DNA from: an uncultured Gemmatimonadota bacterium
GTDB taxonomy: Bacteria; Gemmatimonadota; Gemmatimonadetes; Gemmatimonadales; Gemmatimonadaceae
Length of the DNA: 5,666 bases
Direction: 5' to 3'
Assembly: GCA_946479995.1 (NCBI GenBank)
Contig: CAMLIU010000126.1
Location: forward strand, 1-5,666
The notes under the pieces are model-generated. The model searched no databases. It had not been told where the DNA came from and saw only the letters and a list, made by a program, of their open reading frames with translations. The position numbers and the translations under genes were made by a program. Positions 1-5,580 of the stretch are shown here, piece after piece (within the stretch, counting starts at the first letter, position 1; each line of letters starts with the position of its first letter).

Positions 1-346
1 GCTCGATCAGGTCGAGGAAGCGCCGCGGCTCGTCGTCGAAGCGATTGAGCACCACATGCTGGACGCCGACGTGCGCCAGCCGGACCACGAGCCGCATCGC
101 CTGCGGGGTGAGCGTCGTGTAGACGATGACGGGCAGGCCGGGCTGGCGATTGATGAGCGCCTCGAGGGAATCCACCATGGCGCCGTCGCGTGCGGACGGG
201 TCGACGACGAGGAGATCCGGGTCCTCCGCGGCGAGCATCGTGAACAGCTCCGCCGCGTCGGTCGCCGCACTCAGCGAGTGGGCATTCCCGAGCACGGTCC
301 GGAGATGTCCGAGGAGATGGCGGGGGAGGAAGGCGACGACGTGCAA
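1..346 (-). CDS. Degenerate response-regulator receiver-like protein, 3' end outside window
   Basis: The minus frame is open from the window edge to a TGA upstream of 397, and 115 residues are visible from the TTG at 346. They read like a CheY-type receiver: beta-1 HVVAF, then a helix (LPRHLLGHLRTVL), then DPDLLVVDP, whose Asp (about residue 49) sits where receivers are phosphorylated. VIVYTT follows (switch Thr at about 77), then GVQHVVLNRFDDE in place of the usual Y-x-x-K-P-F. The acidic pair after beta-1 is replaced by Ala-Phe and the conserved Lys by Asn, so Mg-dependent phosphorylation looks doubtful. An output domain, probably DNA-binding, is expected beyond the edge but not seen. The start is uncertain: TTG 346 fits the receiver boundary, TTG 397 lies inside the repeated element, GTG 295 would remove beta-1, and none has a good ribosome-binding site. 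It may regulate its neighbours; that is inference. Confidence 0.66.
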   Translation of the reverse strand, partial: MHVVAFLPRHLLGHLRTVLGNAHSLSAATDAAELFTMLAAEDPDLLVVDPSARDGAMVDSLEALINRQPGLPVIVYTTLTPQAMRLVVRLAHVGVQHVVLNRFDDEPRRFLDLIE

Positions 347-380: not shown

Positions 381-421
381 TGTGGAGAATGTCGCAAAAC
401 GCCGGATTTTTGTCACAAAAT
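381..421 (+). promoter_or_regulatory. Shared upstream element, copy A (TGTCRCAAAA direct repeat)
   Basis: This 41-bp AT-rich island in GC-rich sequence is nearly identical to 1997-2038 on the other strand. It starts TGTGGAGAA and contains TGTCGCAAAA at 390-399 and TGTCACAAAA at 411-420, direct half-sites 21 bp apart start to start. The second half-site is followed by TGCCGG, echoing the CGCCGG after the first, so the whole is close to two tandem 21-bp units. It ends 79 nt before the ATG of the small lipoprotein gene, in the same relative orientation as copy B has to the TPR gene. Direct half-sites two helical turns apart suit a regulator binding one DNA face (LytTR-type regulators are one known example of such spacing). 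It could also act leftward on the receiver-like gene. The cognate protein is unknown. Confidence 0.6.
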
Positions 422-500
422 GCCGGTTTACGCGACGCATCGCGACCCTACGTTCGGGGCAGTCGTTCGAACTCACCGTCCGCCTACCCTGGAGTCGCCC
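422..500 (+). promoter_or_regulatory. Leader of the small lipoprotein gene, with hairpin and RBS
   Basis: This stretch lies between the shared element and the ATG at 501. It holds a compact hairpin (stem 431-435 CGCGA with 440-444 TCGCG, four-base loop) and a weaker GTTCG/CGAAC pair (452-456 with 468-472). A Shine-Dalgarno GGAG at 491-494 lies six bases before the ATG; its context CCCTGGAG is the same as that before the TPR gene. No confident -35/-10 pair is visible, so the transcription start is not assigned. Confidence 0.45.
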
Positions 501-635
501 ATGTCCCGCCGCCAGCTGACCCTGCTCGTCGTTGCGCTCGTTTCCTTCGCCGCCACCGCGTGCGGCACGGCCTCCACGGCGCCTCGGCATGATGCTGACA
601 CGACGGCGATCGTGACGAACGGCGCCGGGGGCTGA
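501..635 (+). CDS. Small putative lipoprotein or secreted peptide (44 aa)
   Basis: The ATG has a well-placed GGAG six bases upstream, and the frame runs 44 codons to TGA. The protein begins MSRR, followed by a hydrophobic stretch (about residues 6-20, LTLLVVALVSFAATA) and Cys21. That is a class II signal peptide with a non-canonical lipobox: Ala at -3, Thr at -2, Ala at -1. Processing would leave a 24-residue, Thr/Ala-rich tail ending in NGAGG, too short for a folded enzyme. I do not recognise the family. The gene converges on the TPR gene with 32 bp between stop codons, and both have the same upstream element, so co-regulation is likely. It could be a signalling peptide, a small envelope lipoprotein, or a chance ORF. 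The RBS, the signal-peptide pattern and the placement behind the shared element argue for a real gene. Confidence 0.62.
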   Translation: MSRRQLTLLVVALVSFAATACGTASTAPRHDADTTAIVTNGAGG

Positions 636-647
636 CGTTCCAGAGGC

Positions 648-668
648 ACGAACCGTCGTTCGGTTCGT
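648..668. terminator. Hairpin between convergent genes
   Basis: ACGAACCG (648-655) pairs perfectly with CGGTTCGT (661-668) around a five-base loop, in the 32-bp gap between the convergent lipoprotein and TPR genes. Its last base overlaps the TPR stop codon (668-670). It is symmetric, so it could serve both directions, but neither side has a T-tract, so intrinsic termination is plausible rather than certain. Confidence 0.5.
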
Positions 669-1900
669 CACGTGAGTGTCACCACTCGACGCAGCTCGTG
701 CACCTTGTTCGCGACGTCGACGAGATGCTCCGGTACCATTGCATCGGTCGCCGGGATTCGAAGCTGATCCAGATTGGCGAGGCGCTCTTCAACCGCGAAG
801 AGCAGTTGATTGAACTTGTATTCCTTAGCGATGCTGCGTGCCTGGTCGAGAGCTGTTTGTGCGCCAGGCAGGTTGCCAAGTCTTGCGTAGCCTTCTCCCA
901 GGTGTAGTTGAAACTGCGCCTTCAAATTGATGGGGAGGTCAGCTTGCAACAGAGAGCGCTTGTATCGTTCAAAGAGGGTCGCTGACCCATCGACCGACGC
1001 GATTTCCATCAAGTTGATCGCAGCGACCCAGCGCTGATACTGCTCCCGGCCAGTCGCCTCGAGGATGAGGTACGCGTCGCGAGCTGCCGACCGGGCGCCC
1101 AGCATGTAGAACGAACCCGCAATATCCGCGAGAAGACGATCTCGGTTACTCAGGTCGTCTTCTCGCTCGAGCGCCTCATACGCAAATCTGACGGCGTGGT
1201 CGTATTGGCCTCTCAAGAATGCCACGTCTGCGCGCTCGTGCAGGGCGCGAGCCTGCACGCCAGTTAGTCCATGAGCGGATGACTGCGCAATTACACTATC
1301 CAGCGTCGCTTCTGCGCTGGGCAGGTTGCCGCGCATGATGGCGATGCGTGCGCATCCGACTTCGGCGCGAAGTATCCCGTCGAGATCACCACTCGACTGT
1401 GCAAGTCCGCGAGCGGCCTCGTACCGGGCGAGAGACTCGTCGAATTCGCCCAGATGCCTCAGCACCCAGGCGAGTCGGAGCGTGGCCGCAATCGCCACGT
1501 CGCTCTCCTCCACCGGATGCACGTGCGCGATCACGGTCTCGTACACGTCCGCCGCCAGCGCCCACTTCGCGTCCAGGTCCAGCGCGCGCCCGTACGCCAG
1601 CAGGCGCGGCGCGATCGCCCGCATGTCGTTCGGCGGCGATGACTTCAGCGCTCCAACGACGCTCCGCAGCACCGAGCGCGCCGGCAGTCCCTCATCCACT
1701 TCCTCGATCGCCGCTTCCACCGAGCGAATGCCCCACCCGTCCGACGCAACCGCGGTCGCCCCCTCCTCGATCCAGGCGTCCACCAGCCGCAGCACCACCA
1801 GCCCGGCGCTCACCGCGCGCCACGACGGATCTCCGTCGTCCAGTGCCGCGAGCTCCGCGAAGAACGCCAGGTGTCGCGTTCCCTCTGTCTGATCGAACAC
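668..1900 (-). CDS. TPR-repeat protein without DNA-binding domain (410 aa)
   Basis: The GTG at 1900 is chosen because GGAGG (complement of 1908-1912) lies seven bases upstream. The protein has no signal peptide or membrane segment, so it is probably cytoplasmic. Residues 1-110 are helical but not clearly TPR. From about residue 112 come TPR-like helix pairs: 138-170 (with LRLAWVLRHLGEFDESLARY), 178-210 (IAIMRGNLPSAEATLDSV), 217-250 (AFLRGQYDHAVRFAYEAL), 256-283, and 330-362 (EGYARLGNLPGAQTALDQA). The G-x-x-x-x-A spacing is typical. TPR arrays bind proteins or peptides; no catalytic motif is seen. An N-terminal helical part plus TPR array without a helix-turn-helix resembles the layout of Rap-type members of the RRNPP peptide-sensing family, but that is analogy only. 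The TPR-coding part is clearly less GC-rich than the N-terminal part. Convergent with the 44-aa lipoprotein gene, with which it shares an upstream element. Confidence 0.85.
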   Translation of the reverse strand: MFDQTEGTRHLAFFAELAALDDGDPSWRAVSAGLVVLRLVDAWIEEGATAVASDGWGIRSVEAAIEEVDEGLPARSVLRSVVGALKSSPPNDMRAIAPRLLAYGRALDLDAKWALAADVYETVIAHVHPVEESDVAIAATLRLAWVLRHLGEFDESLARYEAARGLAQSSGDLDGILRAEVGCARIAIMRGNLPSAEATLDSVIAQSSAHGLTGVQARALHERADVAFLRGQYDHAVRFAYEALEREDDLSNRDRLLADIAGSFYMLGARSAARDAYLILEATGREQYQRWVAAINLMEIASVDGSATLFERYKRSLLQADLPINLKAQFQLHLGEGYARLGNLPGAQTALDQARSIAKEYKFNQLLFAVEERLANLDQLRIPATDAMVPEHLVDVANKVHELRRVVTLT

Positions 1901-1960
1901 GGGTAGGCCTCCAGGGCTGTTGGCGGCATCGACTCCGCCGATGCCTGCCTTACTGAGGCA
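1901..1960 (-). promoter_or_regulatory. Structured leader and RBS of the TPR gene
   Basis: Just upstream of the GTG at 1900 the minus strand has GGAGG (complement of 1908-1912, seven bases from the start). It is preceded by two directly abutting hairpins: GGCATCG/CGATGCC (1925-1931 with 1939-1945, seven-base loop) and TGCCT/AGGCA (1946-1950 with 1956-1960, five-base loop). If transcription starts near the shared element farther upstream, both hairpins are in the mRNA leader and could affect translation or stability. No open leader-peptide frame or known riboswitch was recognised. Confidence 0.45.
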
Positions 1961-1996
1961 CGACGATGGGTTCCCTCACCAGCCCCATCAAGGGTG

Positions 1997-2038
1997 ATTT
2001 TGTGACAGAAATCCCCCGATTTTGCGACATTTTCCACA
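1997..2038 (-). promoter_or_regulatory. Shared upstream element, copy B (TGTCRCAAAA direct repeat)
   Basis: Read on the minus strand, this begins TGTGGAAAA, then TGTCGCAAAA, a 12-base spacer ending in GGATTTC, then TGTCACAAAA and a T. It matches copy A (381-421) almost base for base, except for a few changes and one extra base in the spacer, which puts the half-sites 22 instead of 21 bp apart. Conservation falls off on both sides. It ends 96 nt before the TPR start codon and points towards it. An operator or promoter for a common regulator is the simplest reading. Confidence 0.6.
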
Positions 2039-2184: not shown

Positions 2185-3225
2185 CTACTTGCTCGCGACC
2201 TGATCCTTTCCGCGCGGCACCATGCGCGTCTTCGACGTCGTGAGCTGAGTCAGCGTGCGCGCGATGTCGTTCCCCACCGCCTGCACGCGGTTGATGCTCT
2301 TCGGGTTGAACTGCGGATCGTACGGGCTGCGCGCCGGACCGCCGGCCACCTCCAACACTGCCTGGAAGCTGTAGCTGTGCGTCTTGCCGGTCTTCGGGTC
2401 GGTCCAGCTCCCCTTCCACGCCAGCTCGCGGTTCTTCGGCCACAGTCCGTACGGGAGCGCCATCGTGCGGATCTTGTAGCCCGGCACCGCCGAGTCGATT
2501 CCCATCGCGTTGCGCACGATCTGCTCCTGCACCGCCGCGTCGGGATACTGGCTCAGCTTCATGTGCCAGAGCGTGTGGTCGCACAGCTCGAAGCCGTTGT
2601 CGGCGAGCCACTTCACCTTCTGGAACCGCCACTCCTTCTTCTGTCCGTCGAACTTCACGTTGTCGCCGAAGAAGTTGTGGCCCGCCGCACCACCGTTCAG
2701 CATGCAGTACGTGCCCCTGTTCTTCCAGCCGGGATGCGACTTCGCGAAGTCGAGCCAGATCCCCATCCCGCTCGTCGGGTCGATCTCCAGCTTGCCGTCC
2801 TTCTCGATGTAGCGGAACTGCGACGGCGACGCGTCGTCGTACACGAACACCACCGGCGACATCCCGGGCGGCACGTCGCTGAAGTCCTTGTCCAGCATCT
2901 GCGCGATGGTGATCGGCCGGTAGCCGAGCTTGTAGGCGGTGTCGAGGTCCGCCTTGTAGCTCGCCGCAGTCCGCGAGTACAAGGCGTTCTTGTCACCGCC
3001 GATCACGTGGTACTCCAGCACCGGGATGCGCCCGGTGAGATTCTGGCCGAGCGTGCCCCGCTCGTTGCCGGTATAGCCGGCCGGCGAAGCGCTGTCGCCC
3101 GTCGTGGCGGCCGCGGAGCGCGTCACGTTCCCCGCCGCGGAATCAACGGTTGTGGCGGTCTTTTGTTCGGCGCCGGTGGAACACGCGGCGAGGAAGGCGA
3201 GAAGTCCTGCGATGCGGCGATCCAT
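2185..3225 (-). CDS. Secreted polysaccharide deacetylase family (CE4-like) lipoprotein
   Basis: The 346-residue protein starts at ATG 3225 with a purine-rich GGGG nearby. A short signal peptide (MDRRIAGLLAFLAAC) has a lipobox Cys at 15, so the mature protein is probably lipid-anchored outside the cytoplasm. A low-complexity Ala/Thr/Ser linker (about 20-55) precedes the catalytic domain. NodB/CE4 signatures follow in order: PVLEYHVIG (68-76); VVFVYDD (125-131), matching the TFDD metal/base motif with Tyr for Phe; GFELCDHTLWH (211-221), matching the H-T-x-x-H metal motif (His217, His221); and ALPYG (256-260), matching the R-x-PYG motif. CE4 enzymes remove N-acetyl groups from GlcNAc-type polymers; the substrate here is unknown. 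The usual Arg before PYG is not visible, and about 80 residues separate motifs 1 and 2, so it is a divergent member. Divergent from the PBP gene. Confidence 0.88.
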   Translation of the reverse strand: MDRRIAGLLAFLAACSTGAEQKTATTVDSAAGNVTRSAAATTGDSASPAGYTGNERGTLGQNLTGRIPVLEYHVIGGDKNALYSRTAASYKADLDTAYKLGYRPITIAQMLDKDFSDVPPGMSPVVFVYDDASPSQFRYIEKDGKLEIDPTSGMGIWLDFAKSHPGWKNRGTYCMLNGGAAGHNFFGDNVKFDGQKKEWRFQKVKWLADNGFELCDHTLWHMKLSQYPDAAVQEQIVRNAMGIDSAVPGYKIRTMALPYGLWPKNRELAWKGSWTDPKTGKTHSYSFQAVLEVAGGPARSPYDPQFNPKSINRVQAVGNDIARTLTQLTTSKTRMVPRGKDQVASK

Positions 3226-3393: not shown

Positions 3394-5580
3394 GTGCCAC
3401 GCCCATTTCTCCGACTATCTGACCGGTTCGCGCTGCTTCGGCAGCGCCTCCGCGCCACTGACGAGCCCGCCCGCGTCTGGATGAAGCGACGCTGGCGCTC
3501 GCTCACCGTGCTTGCCCTGCTGTGCGTCGGTGTCGGCGCGTTCGACGCCTGGCTGGGCACCTGCGGCTTCGCCGGCTGTCCGTCGCGGAGCGAGATCCGC
3601 GCGTTCCGCCCCGGCGAAGGGGGGCGGATCCTCGATCGGAACGATCGCTACATGGGACGCATCGCCATCGTGCGACGCGTCAACGTTCCCCTCTCCGACA
3701 TCCCGCTGCACGTGCGCCAGGCCTTCCTCGCCACCGAGGACCGCCGGTTCTACCAGCACAATGGCCTCGACTGGCGCGGCTTCTTCCGCGCGGCGGCCAG
3801 CAACATCCGCCACATGGGCGTGCGCGAGGGGTTCAGCACCATCACCATGCAGGTGGCGCGCAACTCCTTCCTCGTGAACCAGCGCGCGGGCCGCACCCTG
3901 CGCCGCAAGTTCATCGAGCTGCGCCTCACCCGCCTCATCGAGGGCGAGCTCACCAAGGACCAGATCCTCGAGCTCTACCTCAACCTGATCTACCTCGGCA
4001 ACGGCATGAACGGCGTCGAGGCGGCGAGCCGCGACCTGTTCGGCAAGCACGTGAGCGAGCTCTCGGTGAGCGAGGGGGCGATGCTCGCCGCGCTCCCGAA
4101 GGGTCCGAGCGCATACACGCCGCGCGACCACTACGAGCGCGGGCTGCGGCGCCGCAACCTCGTGCTCGCGCTGATGGGCGAGGAGGGCTACCTCACTGCC
4201 GCCCAGGTGGAACGCGCGACGGAGACGCCGCTGCGCATCGCCGAGGACGAGTGGCGCCCCGATACCGGCAACGAGCCCCTCGCGCTCGACGCCGTGCGCG
4301 CGTTCATCGACTCCATCCTTCCCGATGCGCTGAAGGACGGCGACGTCACCGTCTACACCACGCTCGACCTCGCGGCGCAGCGGGCAGCGGACCGCGCCGT
4401 GCTGAAGCAGACCACGGTCGTGACGCGCGAGACGCAGTATGCCGGCAACCGCGTGAAGGAAGCCGCGCAGGGCGCGCTCGTCGCGCTCGACCCGCACAAT
4501 GGCGACATCCGCGCCCTCGTCGGCGGACGTCGCAGCAAGCGCGGATTCAATCGTGCCCTGAACGCGCGGCGCCAGCCGGGGTCGGCGTTCAAGCCGTTCG
4601 TCTACGCCGCAGGACTGCGCGCCGGCATGTCGCCCGCCACGCTCGTGGACGACGAGCCCGTGGAGGTGCAGCAGGGGCGCAACCGCGTGTGGCGCCCCGC
4701 CAACTACGGCGACGAGTACACGGGCACCATCACGCTCGCCAAGGCCCTCGCCATCTCGTCGAACGCCGCTGCGGTGCGCGTGAGCCAGACGGTGGGGATC
4801 CCGAACGTGATCGACGCGGCGCGTCGCAACGGGATCACGAGCCCCTTGCCCAACGTGCCGGCCATGGCCCTCGGCGCGGTGGACGTCACGCCGCTGGAGC
4901 TCGTGGCCGCCTACGCGCCATTCGCCAACGGCGGCATGCGCGTCACGCCGCGACTCGTGCGCCGCATCGAGGCCGCCGACGGCACCGTGCTCTGGAGCCA
5001 GGAGATCACGCCGCCCGACACCGTGATGGATCCGCGCGACGCCTATCAGCTCACCGACATGCTGCGCGGCGTGGTGGACGACGGGACGGCGCGCGTGCTC
5101 CGCAACATGGGAGTGGACGGTCCGGTCGCCGGCAAGACCGGCACGACGAACGACGCAGACGACGTCTGGTTCGTGGGCTACACACCGTCACTCGTTGCCG
5201 GCGTGTGGTTCGGCTACGACACGCCACGCCCCATCGCGCCGCATGCGTCGGGCGGACACCTCGCCGCGCCGGCGTGGGCGGAGTTCTACCTGAACGGCTG
5301 GCGCGAGCCCGCGTCGAGCGCCACCGCATGGAAGCCGCCGCCGGGCATGATCGATCGCGTCATCGACCCCGAGACGGGCATGCTGGCCAACGACTGGTGC
5401 CCCGAGCGCAAGCGCGAGTGGTTCAAGCCCGGCACCGAGCCGACGCAGCTCTGCAACGTGCACGTCGAGCCGCAGCCGGACTACTACCCGTTCCCCGACC
5501 AGCTCCCGCCGATGCCCGACCCGGTGAAGAAGGCGACGGAGGGGATCGGGAAGGTGCTCCGCCGCATCTTCCACTTTTGA
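3394..5580 (+). CDS. Class A penicillin-binding protein, PBP1A-type (GT51 + transpeptidase)
   Basis: This bifunctional peptidoglycan synthase of 728 residues polymerises lipid II and cross-links stem peptides in the periplasm. A cytoplasmic basic stretch (to about 35) precedes one membrane helix (about 36-53). GT51 motifs are present: ATEDRRFY with catalytic Glu115, GFSTITMQVARN (146-157), RKFIE (171-175) and the ELYLNLIYLGNG region (193-204). The transpeptidase has SAFK (nucleophile Ser397, Lys400), SSN (455-457) and KTGTT (581-585). A C-terminal extension carries Cys669 and Cys687, and a CxxxC (57, 61) lies just outside the membrane. All catalytic residues are intact. The GTG at 3394 gives the longest frame but lacks a clear Shine-Dalgarno; ATG 3481 (residue 30) is an alternative that keeps the membrane helix. 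The gene is divergent from the deacetylase. It could be called PBP1A or mrcA-like, but I give no symbol because the subclass is not certain. Confidence 0.95.
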   Translation: MPRPFLRLSDRFALLRQRLRATDEPARVWMKRRWRSLTVLALLCVGVGAFDAWLGTCGFAGCPSRSEIRAFRPGEGGRILDRNDRYMGRIAIVRRVNVPLSDIPLHVRQAFLATEDRRFYQHNGLDWRGFFRAAASNIRHMGVREGFSTITMQVARNSFLVNQRAGRTLRRKFIELRLTRLIEGELTKDQILELYLNLIYLGNGMNGVEAASRDLFGKHVSELSVSEGAMLAALPKGPSAYTPRDHYERGLRRRNLVLALMGEEGYLTAAQVERATETPLRIAEDEWRPDTGNEPLALDAVRAFIDSILPDALKDGDVTVYTTLDLAAQRAADRAVLKQTTVVTRETQYAGNRVKEAAQGALVALDPHNGDIRALVGGRRSKRGFNRALNARRQPGSAFKPFVYAAGLRAGMSPATLVDDEPVEVQQGRNRVWRPANYGDEYTGTITLAKALAISSNAAAVRVSQTVGIPNVIDAARRNGITSPLPNVPAMALGAVDVTPLELVAAYAPFANGGMRVTPRLVRRIEAADGTVLWSQEITPPDTVMDPRDAYQLTDMLRGVVDDGTARVLRNMGVDGPVAGKTGTTNDADDVWFVGYTPSLVAGVWFGYDTPRPIAPHASGGHLAAPAWAEFYLNGWREPASSATAWKPPPGMIDRVIDPETGMLANDWCPERKREWFKPGTEPTQLCNVHVEPQPDYYPFPDQLPPMPDPVKKATEGIGKVLRRIFHF

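Follow-up and report, generated by a model that had tools for sequence, protein, structure and literature searches.

We analyzed a stretch of 5,666 nucleotides (nt) from an uncultured bacterium of the Gemmatimonadaceae (phylum Gemmatimonadota; assembly GCA_946479995.1, contig CAMLIU010000126.1; hereafter the window), which carries two near-identical short elements, copy 1 at 381-421 on the plus strand and copy 2 at 1997-2038 on the minus strand. Copy 1 sits between two divergent genes, one for an AraC-family regulator on the minus strand and a tiny lipoprotein-like open reading frame (ORF) on the plus strand, and copy 2 lies upstream of a gene for a tetratricopeptide repeat (TPR) protein. We think it likely that both elements are operators of the divergent regulator, whose gene starts at 346 (minus strand) and had been overlooked by an earlier note on this DNA, and that this regulator activates the lipoprotein and the TPR promoters. 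Our computations revealed sites of fixed geometry that are conserved among relatives, nearly absent elsewhere in six genomes and tracked by the recognition helices of the adjacent regulators; we infer binding by the regulator, activation rather than repression, autoregulation, and the location and roles of both gene products.

Each element holds two direct half-sites about two helical turns apart

The two copies align over 46-47 nt with one gap and a local score of 31, against a mean of 11.2 and a maximum of 14 in 100 dinucleotide-shuffled windows. The earlier note had described these copies, their coordinates, strands and close match correctly. It had also correctly called them AT-rich in a GC-rich context (GC 0.41 for copy 1 and 0.40 for copy 2 vs 0.67 for the whole window) and placed them 79 nt (copy 1, lipoprotein-like ORF) and 96 nt (copy 2, TPR gene) from the start codons. 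An exact motif search of the window found that all four half-sites, two in each copy as previously noted, read TGTCRCAAAA; half-site identity between the window's two copies is 20/20, and 14-17 of 20 in five relatives. The earlier note had further seen a one-base spacer difference between the copies. The difference is real, but the values of 21 and 22 base pairs (bp) are the half-to-half periods of copies 1 and 2, and the gaps between the half-sites are 11 and 12 nt. The difference is also kept in evolution: in the window and in each of the six nearest relatives that have both sites (L057, L059, L060, L063, L114 and L115), the period is 21 on the lipoprotein side and 22 on the TPR side. A TPR-side period of 22 occurs in L069, L123, L125, L126 and L132 as well, and one of 21 in L068 and L120.

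The left extent previously assigned to copy 1 did not hold. Its TGTGGA block has no counterpart on the lipoprotein side in the relatives displayed, and occurs on the TPR side of some only, so that the conserved element of copy 1 starts at 390 and runs rightward into the predicted promoter to about 454. Within the close clade, a GCCGG-TTT-like stretch after TGTCRCAAAA recurs in lipoprotein-side sites and, to a lesser degree, in TPR-side ones.

We then compared loci across the phylum. The main set comprises 39 loci chosen around the stronger matches (the extra site described below, L133, makes a 40th), with a regulator match in 34 of the 39, or 35 loci when the window is included. Direct repeats agreeing at 8 of 10 positions were counted in the 130 nt beside the regulator start, with 30 shuffles as null. 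A direct repeat at lag 21 was found in 29 of the 35 main loci (shuffle mean 0.9, maximum 3); lag 20 occurred in 8 loci, lag 22 in 7 and every remaining lag in 2 or fewer. Among 16 paralog loci lag 21 was again the most frequent (9/16; shuffle mean 0.7, maximum 2), followed by lag 12 in 5. When sequences were trimmed at the lipoprotein start and near-duplicates removed, lag 21 was present in 33/43 loci; a length filter removed seven of the 16 regulator-bearing paralog loci from that count, and the recount of 35 plus 16 loci keeps all. In 29 loci the operator lies 11-83 nt from the regulator start. The elements thus pair two directly oriented half-sites at a distance of about two helical turns, and the idea of an operator read by a dimer on direct repeats is supported and sharpened by the recurring lag and the adjoining promoter. 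Operator sequence itself varies by group: TGTCRCAAAA, TGACACAAAA, TGTCCTAAAA, TGGCACAAAA, and a TGATAGGAAA-like type in a tandem of three. Loci of this last type (L069, L123, L126 and L132) carry three half-sites before the lipoprotein gene, not two.

The proximal half-site adjoins a predicted -35 hexamer

The proximal half-site lies at or next to the predicted -35 position. It ends 6 nt before a -35-like hexamer, followed by a -10-like hexamer at 16 nt (Table 1). Beyond the -35 position, TANNNT was present in 26 of 29 loci, at 16 nt in 25 and at 17 nt in 1. This count covers 29 of the 35 loci, six having been dropped for weak operator scores, and has no shuffle control; by arithmetic, chance would place TANNNT at one of the six allowed spacings in about one locus in ten, though not at one fixed spacing.

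A site beside the -35 is the position from which AraC-type activators touch the polymerase, so the arrangement is the one expected of an activator. The same regulator might instead use these sites as a repressor or mainly for its own regulation, with control of the lipoprotein and TPR genes being secondary. AraC-type proteins commonly regulate themselves from divergent sites, and the short distance from the site to the regulator start in 29 loci favors such a role; the placement next to the -35 and the second site at the TPR promoter, in the window and several relatives, make it an unlikely account of the whole.

Since the repeats are intergenic and upstream of start codons, we also considered whether they act at the RNA level in the 5' transcript, as a leader, attenuator or riboswitch. 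The repeats precede the -10 and would consequently be untranscribed from that promoter, and no Rfam family matched the window at the gathering threshold. An RNA element was rejected on these two grounds, and we give it next to no credence.

Operator sequence follows the recognition helices of the adjacent regulator

If one regulator reads both sites of a locus, the half-sites on its lipoprotein side should fit its own TPR upstream region. The summed match of own lipoprotein-side half-sites to own TPR upstream regions was 832, compared with a mean of 744 and a maximum of 798 for permuted pairs (0/20000, n=29). We further related operator distance to distances within the regulator protein. Given receiver distance, operator distance correlated with recognition-helix distance (partial r 0.49, 0/2000 permutations, n=31 of 34) and with the distance of the whole helix-turn-helix (HTH) domain (partial r 0.26, 1/2000); given HTH distance, the correlation with receiver distance was 0.09 (381/2000). 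The recognition-helix columns were the author's choice, made once.

These results bear on the view that some other DNA-binding protein reads the sites and that the nearness of the regulator is incidental. In favor of it, binding by the regulator is a prediction only, and DnaA-box-like blocks abut some TPR-side sites. However, operator variation follows the recognition helices of the neighboring regulator, with no detectable relation to the receiver once the HTH is accounted for, which renders another reader quite improbable.

Such a DnaA-box-like block, TGTGGAWAA or nearly so, immediately precedes the TPR-side site in 10/37 loci, window included; the others are L057, L059-L062 and L114-L117, and the exact form TGTGGATAA is present in 4 loci.

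The predicted regulon is local

The earlier note had proposed a small regulon and had named hits scattered without relation to gene starts, or a lack of conservation in orthologous loci, as outcomes that would speak against it. We found neither: orthologous loci retain the element, and in six genomes all profile matches below E 0.3, a search that covers sites of the window's own type, fall on lipoprotein or TPR sides, plus one extra site. A 43-position profile built from 14 sites was run on 12 genomes (in seven of them 150 of 167-508 first-look candidates were scored). It returned 12 sites at E 9e-6 or better, three in G001, one in G002 at a contig end, and two each in G369, G343, G027 and G073; all 12 are training sites, recovered by construction. 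Nothing else in the 12 genomes fell below E 0.3, with three matches at 0.31-1.07. Six genomes had no strong profile match, among them G146 and G026, both of which have pattern-matched locus sites. A pattern search of seven genomes, with as many as 3 mismatches allowed, gave 9 matches, 6 at the locus and 3 elsewhere, against 0 for the reversed control; G179 gave no match in this search.

The three off-locus matches comprise the G001 site at L133 and two with 3 mismatches (G001 contig 326 and G146 contig 26). The L133 site (3959-3989, minus strand) is a third operator-like site, 148 nt before a gene for a 390-amino-acid (aa) lipoprotein, and adjoins a divergent PAS-kinase-receiver hybrid gene. 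It was not seen in G027 or G002, both of which have homologs or homolog pieces of its gene. These data support a predicted regulon that is local. A dispersed regulon of many TPR and lipoprotein genes was not found with the profile in the 12 genomes, a search that covers close-type sites, and of the proposed small regulon the local set is what stands.

Paired 21-22-bp direct repeats together with DnaA-box-like blocks, both present here, recall iterons, and a dispersed repeat, an iteron-type replication element or the remnant of a mobile element was accordingly considered. We rejected this explanation and regard it as hardly credible: only one extra site in six genomes was better than E 0.3, 6/9 forward matches of the pattern search were at the locus with none in the reversed control, a plasmid collection gave no match, and the position of the sites is fixed relative to promoters and genes.

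An exact-pattern scan of genome contigs yielded 24 stretches, 2 of them from Gemmatimonadota. Nostoc and relatives, Methylomonas and others (L001-L006, L008-L014 and L016-L024) have the exact half-site pair too, in some cases twice in succession.

A recurring cassette of regulator, operator, tiny lipoprotein and TPR gene

The arrangement of regulator, operator, tiny lipoprotein and TPR gene recurs in relatives as a cassette, with 288-484 nt from regulator start to TPR end where both were matched. Between these two genes, a tiny lipoprotein-like ORF was found in 32 of 35 loci, window included; in one further locus it is truncated at the contig end, and L074 and L124 showed none. Because a lipobox pattern served to select the small ORFs, its presence carries no independent weight. 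A loose TAP-like pattern soon after a Cys is present in 32/32 of them and a glycine-rich G-S/T-G-like end in 26/32, at lengths of 40-66 aa (median 44). A single-domain response regulator adjoins the AraC-like regulator in 25/34 loci (e.g. L057, L058 and L061-L068).

The window's TPR protein matches 166/395 genomes of the phylum, paralogs and distant TPR proteins included, in a search confined to Gemmatimonadota. The regulator of L015 (Gemmatimonadaceae bacterium) matches 161/200 genomes of the phylum at E 1e-3, again with paralogs and distant AraC proteins included. In the regulator homolog search 7999 candidates were scored, and among the best 120 of 446 matches, which were listed, the named taxa are Gemmatimonadetes, Gemmatimonadaceae or plain 'bacterium'.

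Of 18 further loci fetched as paralogs, 16 gave a regulator match, and 15 of those 16 have a lipoprotein-like ORF. Genomes G028, G107 and G110 have four regulator-TPR loci each (the main one plus three more, among L156-L173) with differing direct repeats. Displayed direct repeats differ in sequence among the paralog loci, L167 being closely like L126 and not a distinct type; the displayed operators were chosen by a score favoring TG and AAAA, so that single examples are tentative, and the lag counts were made without that preference. The differing repeats suggest that the paralogs may be parallel, insulated circuits.

The N-terminal part of the window's regulator, 59% identical to the L015 regulator by tblastn, gave a weak Response_reg match in Pfam, below the cut-off. 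Two full-length Gemmatimonadota relatives that were scanned carry HTH_18 (E 1.1e-14 and 1.7e-14) plus a weak receiver match. An AF2 model of the L057 regulator (mean predicted local distance difference test score, pLDDT, 89) has five alternating strands and helices that lead into a helical C-terminal region, and the N-terminus is thus modelled as a (beta-alpha)5 receiver fold. By sequence the regulator's PDB matches were AdpA, VirS and other AraC-type proteins; by fold (Foldseek) most were response regulators or receiver domains. The acceptor Asp (D49) is invariant in 32 regulator sequences. A conserved acidic pair after strand 1 and a conserved Lys after strand 5 were not found by eye in 34 aligned regulators (L122 has a Lys there), and a standard phosphorylation pocket is therefore unlikely. 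In NCBIfam, regulator, TPR protein and lipoprotein gave below-cut-off matches only.

A polysaccharide deacetylase gene (2185-3225, minus strand) and a penicillin-binding protein gene (3394-5580, plus strand) adjoin the cassette here and in a number of relatives.

Table 1. Sites, predicted promoter elements and genes of the cassette in the window.
Feature	Position	Strand	Basis
Copy 1 distal half-site, TGTCGCAAAA	390..399	+	exact motif; kept in relatives
Copy 1 proximal half-site, TGTCACAAAA, period 21 bp	411..420	+	exact motif; lag 21 in 29/35 loci
-35-like TTTACG, 6 nt past proximal half-site	427..432	+	identical hexamer at same place in closest relatives
-10-like TACGTT, 16-nt spacer	449..454	+	TANNNT at 16 or 17 nt in 26/29 loci
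Copy 2 distal half-site, TGTCGCAAAA	2020..2029	-	exact motif
Copy 2 proximal half-site, TGTCACAAAA, period 22 bp	1998..2007	-	exact motif; period 22 in six closest clear relatives
-35-like TTGATG, 6 nt past copy 2 proximal half-site	1986..1991	-	TTGATG or TTGAGG at equal spacing in L059, L114, L115
Weak -10-like CATCGT, 17-nt spacer, uncertain	1963..1968	-	sequence, weak match
DnaA-box-like block TGTGGAAAA abutting copy 2	2030..2038	-	TGTGGAWAA or close form in relatives
AraC-family regulator, N-terminal part with receiver-like domain, predicted TTG start at 346, cut by window edge	2..346	-	tblastn with L015 regulator, 59% identity
Tiny lipoprotein-like ORF, 44 aa, lipobox by eye, then TAP, glycine-rich end	501..635	+	seen in 32/35 loci
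TPR protein, 410 aa, GTG start	668..1900	-	Pfam TPR_12 E 6e-10; AF2 model mean pLDDT 93

Discussion

The earlier interpretation of the two elements as dedicated operators is supported by our analysis. We propose that a dimer of the regulator would read the two direct 10-bp half-sites, two helical turns apart and directly beside the -35 position, and that the bound regulator would recruit RNA polymerase to the lipoprotein promoter at copy 1 and to the TPR promoter at copy 2. Because the first half-site of copy 1 is only 43 nt from the regulator's own start, copy 1 probably also sets the regulator's own level. Such an arrangement would form a closed local circuit in which one regulator co-controls one exported lipoprotein and one cytoplasmic TPR protein.

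Several observations weigh against this proposal. No 8/10 repeat at lag 21 was found in 6/35 main and 7/16 paralog loci, and upstream of the TPR gene lag 21 was found in 14/52 and lag 22 in 12/52 loci (52 of 55 after near-duplicate removal), with shuffles giving about 3 each and a maximum of 7. For six of 29 loci (L065, L066, L067, L115, L116 and L128), half-sites from other loci match the TPR side better on average than the locus's own. In the window and its five closest relatives the half-site match is 16.0 of 20 within a genome vs 15.8 between genomes, and the own-site signal therefore reflects how groups differ from one another. Both permutation tests are inflated by shared ancestry, for part of which the helix test corrects, and resemblance to TGTCACAAAA partly guided the placement of half-sites in the own-site, promoter and helix tests. 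Known sites in G146 and G026 escape the profile, so that absence elsewhere covers close-type sites only. The window's regulator is cut at the edge, its own HTH is not visible and the HTH is known from relatives. Finally, a generic sigma-70 promoter scan of 340-2250 found no promoter, and the -10 of copy 2 is weak; the absence in the generic scan fits weak, activator-dependent hexamers but is no evidence for them.

The operator is of a known kind, in a cassette that is undescribed as far as the literature was searched. That search, which covered few subscription papers and included Gemmatimonadetes with AraC and tetratricopeptide as well as Gemmatimonas promoters and regulators, found no description of the cassette. 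An under-studied phylum thereby gains a predicted switch whose protein, operator and promoter are all specified. Some genomes carry several paralogs and operators diverge along with the recognition helices of their regulators, so that the family is a natural data set on how AraC-type regulators and their operators co-diverge and stay insulated.

The closest known systems are AraC/XylS activators such as XylS at Pm, which likewise have a C-terminal AraC-type HTH and two direct-repeat half-sites, the proximal one beside the -35. XylS sites are described as a pair of homologous 15-bp direct repeats, each comprising boxes A and B (PMC5481539). Unlike XylS, the regulator described here has an N-terminal receiver-like domain, not an effector-binding one; its predicted half-site is TGTCRCAAAA, it would serve two promoters with periods of 21 and 22 bp, and operator sequence has diversified within the family. 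Two-component response regulators of the AraC type share the receiver fold fused to an AraC HTH and the invariant acceptor Asp, but differ in that the acidic pair of strand 1 and the Lys of strand 5 are, by eye, not conserved here.

A third comparison is with the RRNPPA or Rap-Phr cassettes of Firmicutes. Their TPR receptors measure 250-500 aa, a range into which the 410-aa protein falls (TPR_12 E 6e-10), and their propeptides of 10-100 aa carry a Sec signal; the counterpart here would be the adjacent 44-aa ORF, with a lipobox by pattern only. One may speculate that the cassette is a peptide-signalling or envelope-sensing circuit, with the lipoprotein as signal precursor or sensor, the TPR protein as a cytoplasmic receptor acting on the regulator or on the neighboring single-domain response regulator, and the regulator driving both genes. 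We hold this extension to be rather doubtful. Were it true, the paralogs within one genome, each with its own operator, would represent parallel insulated channels, and the comparison raises the testable question of whether peptide-TPR circuits exist outside Firmicutes.

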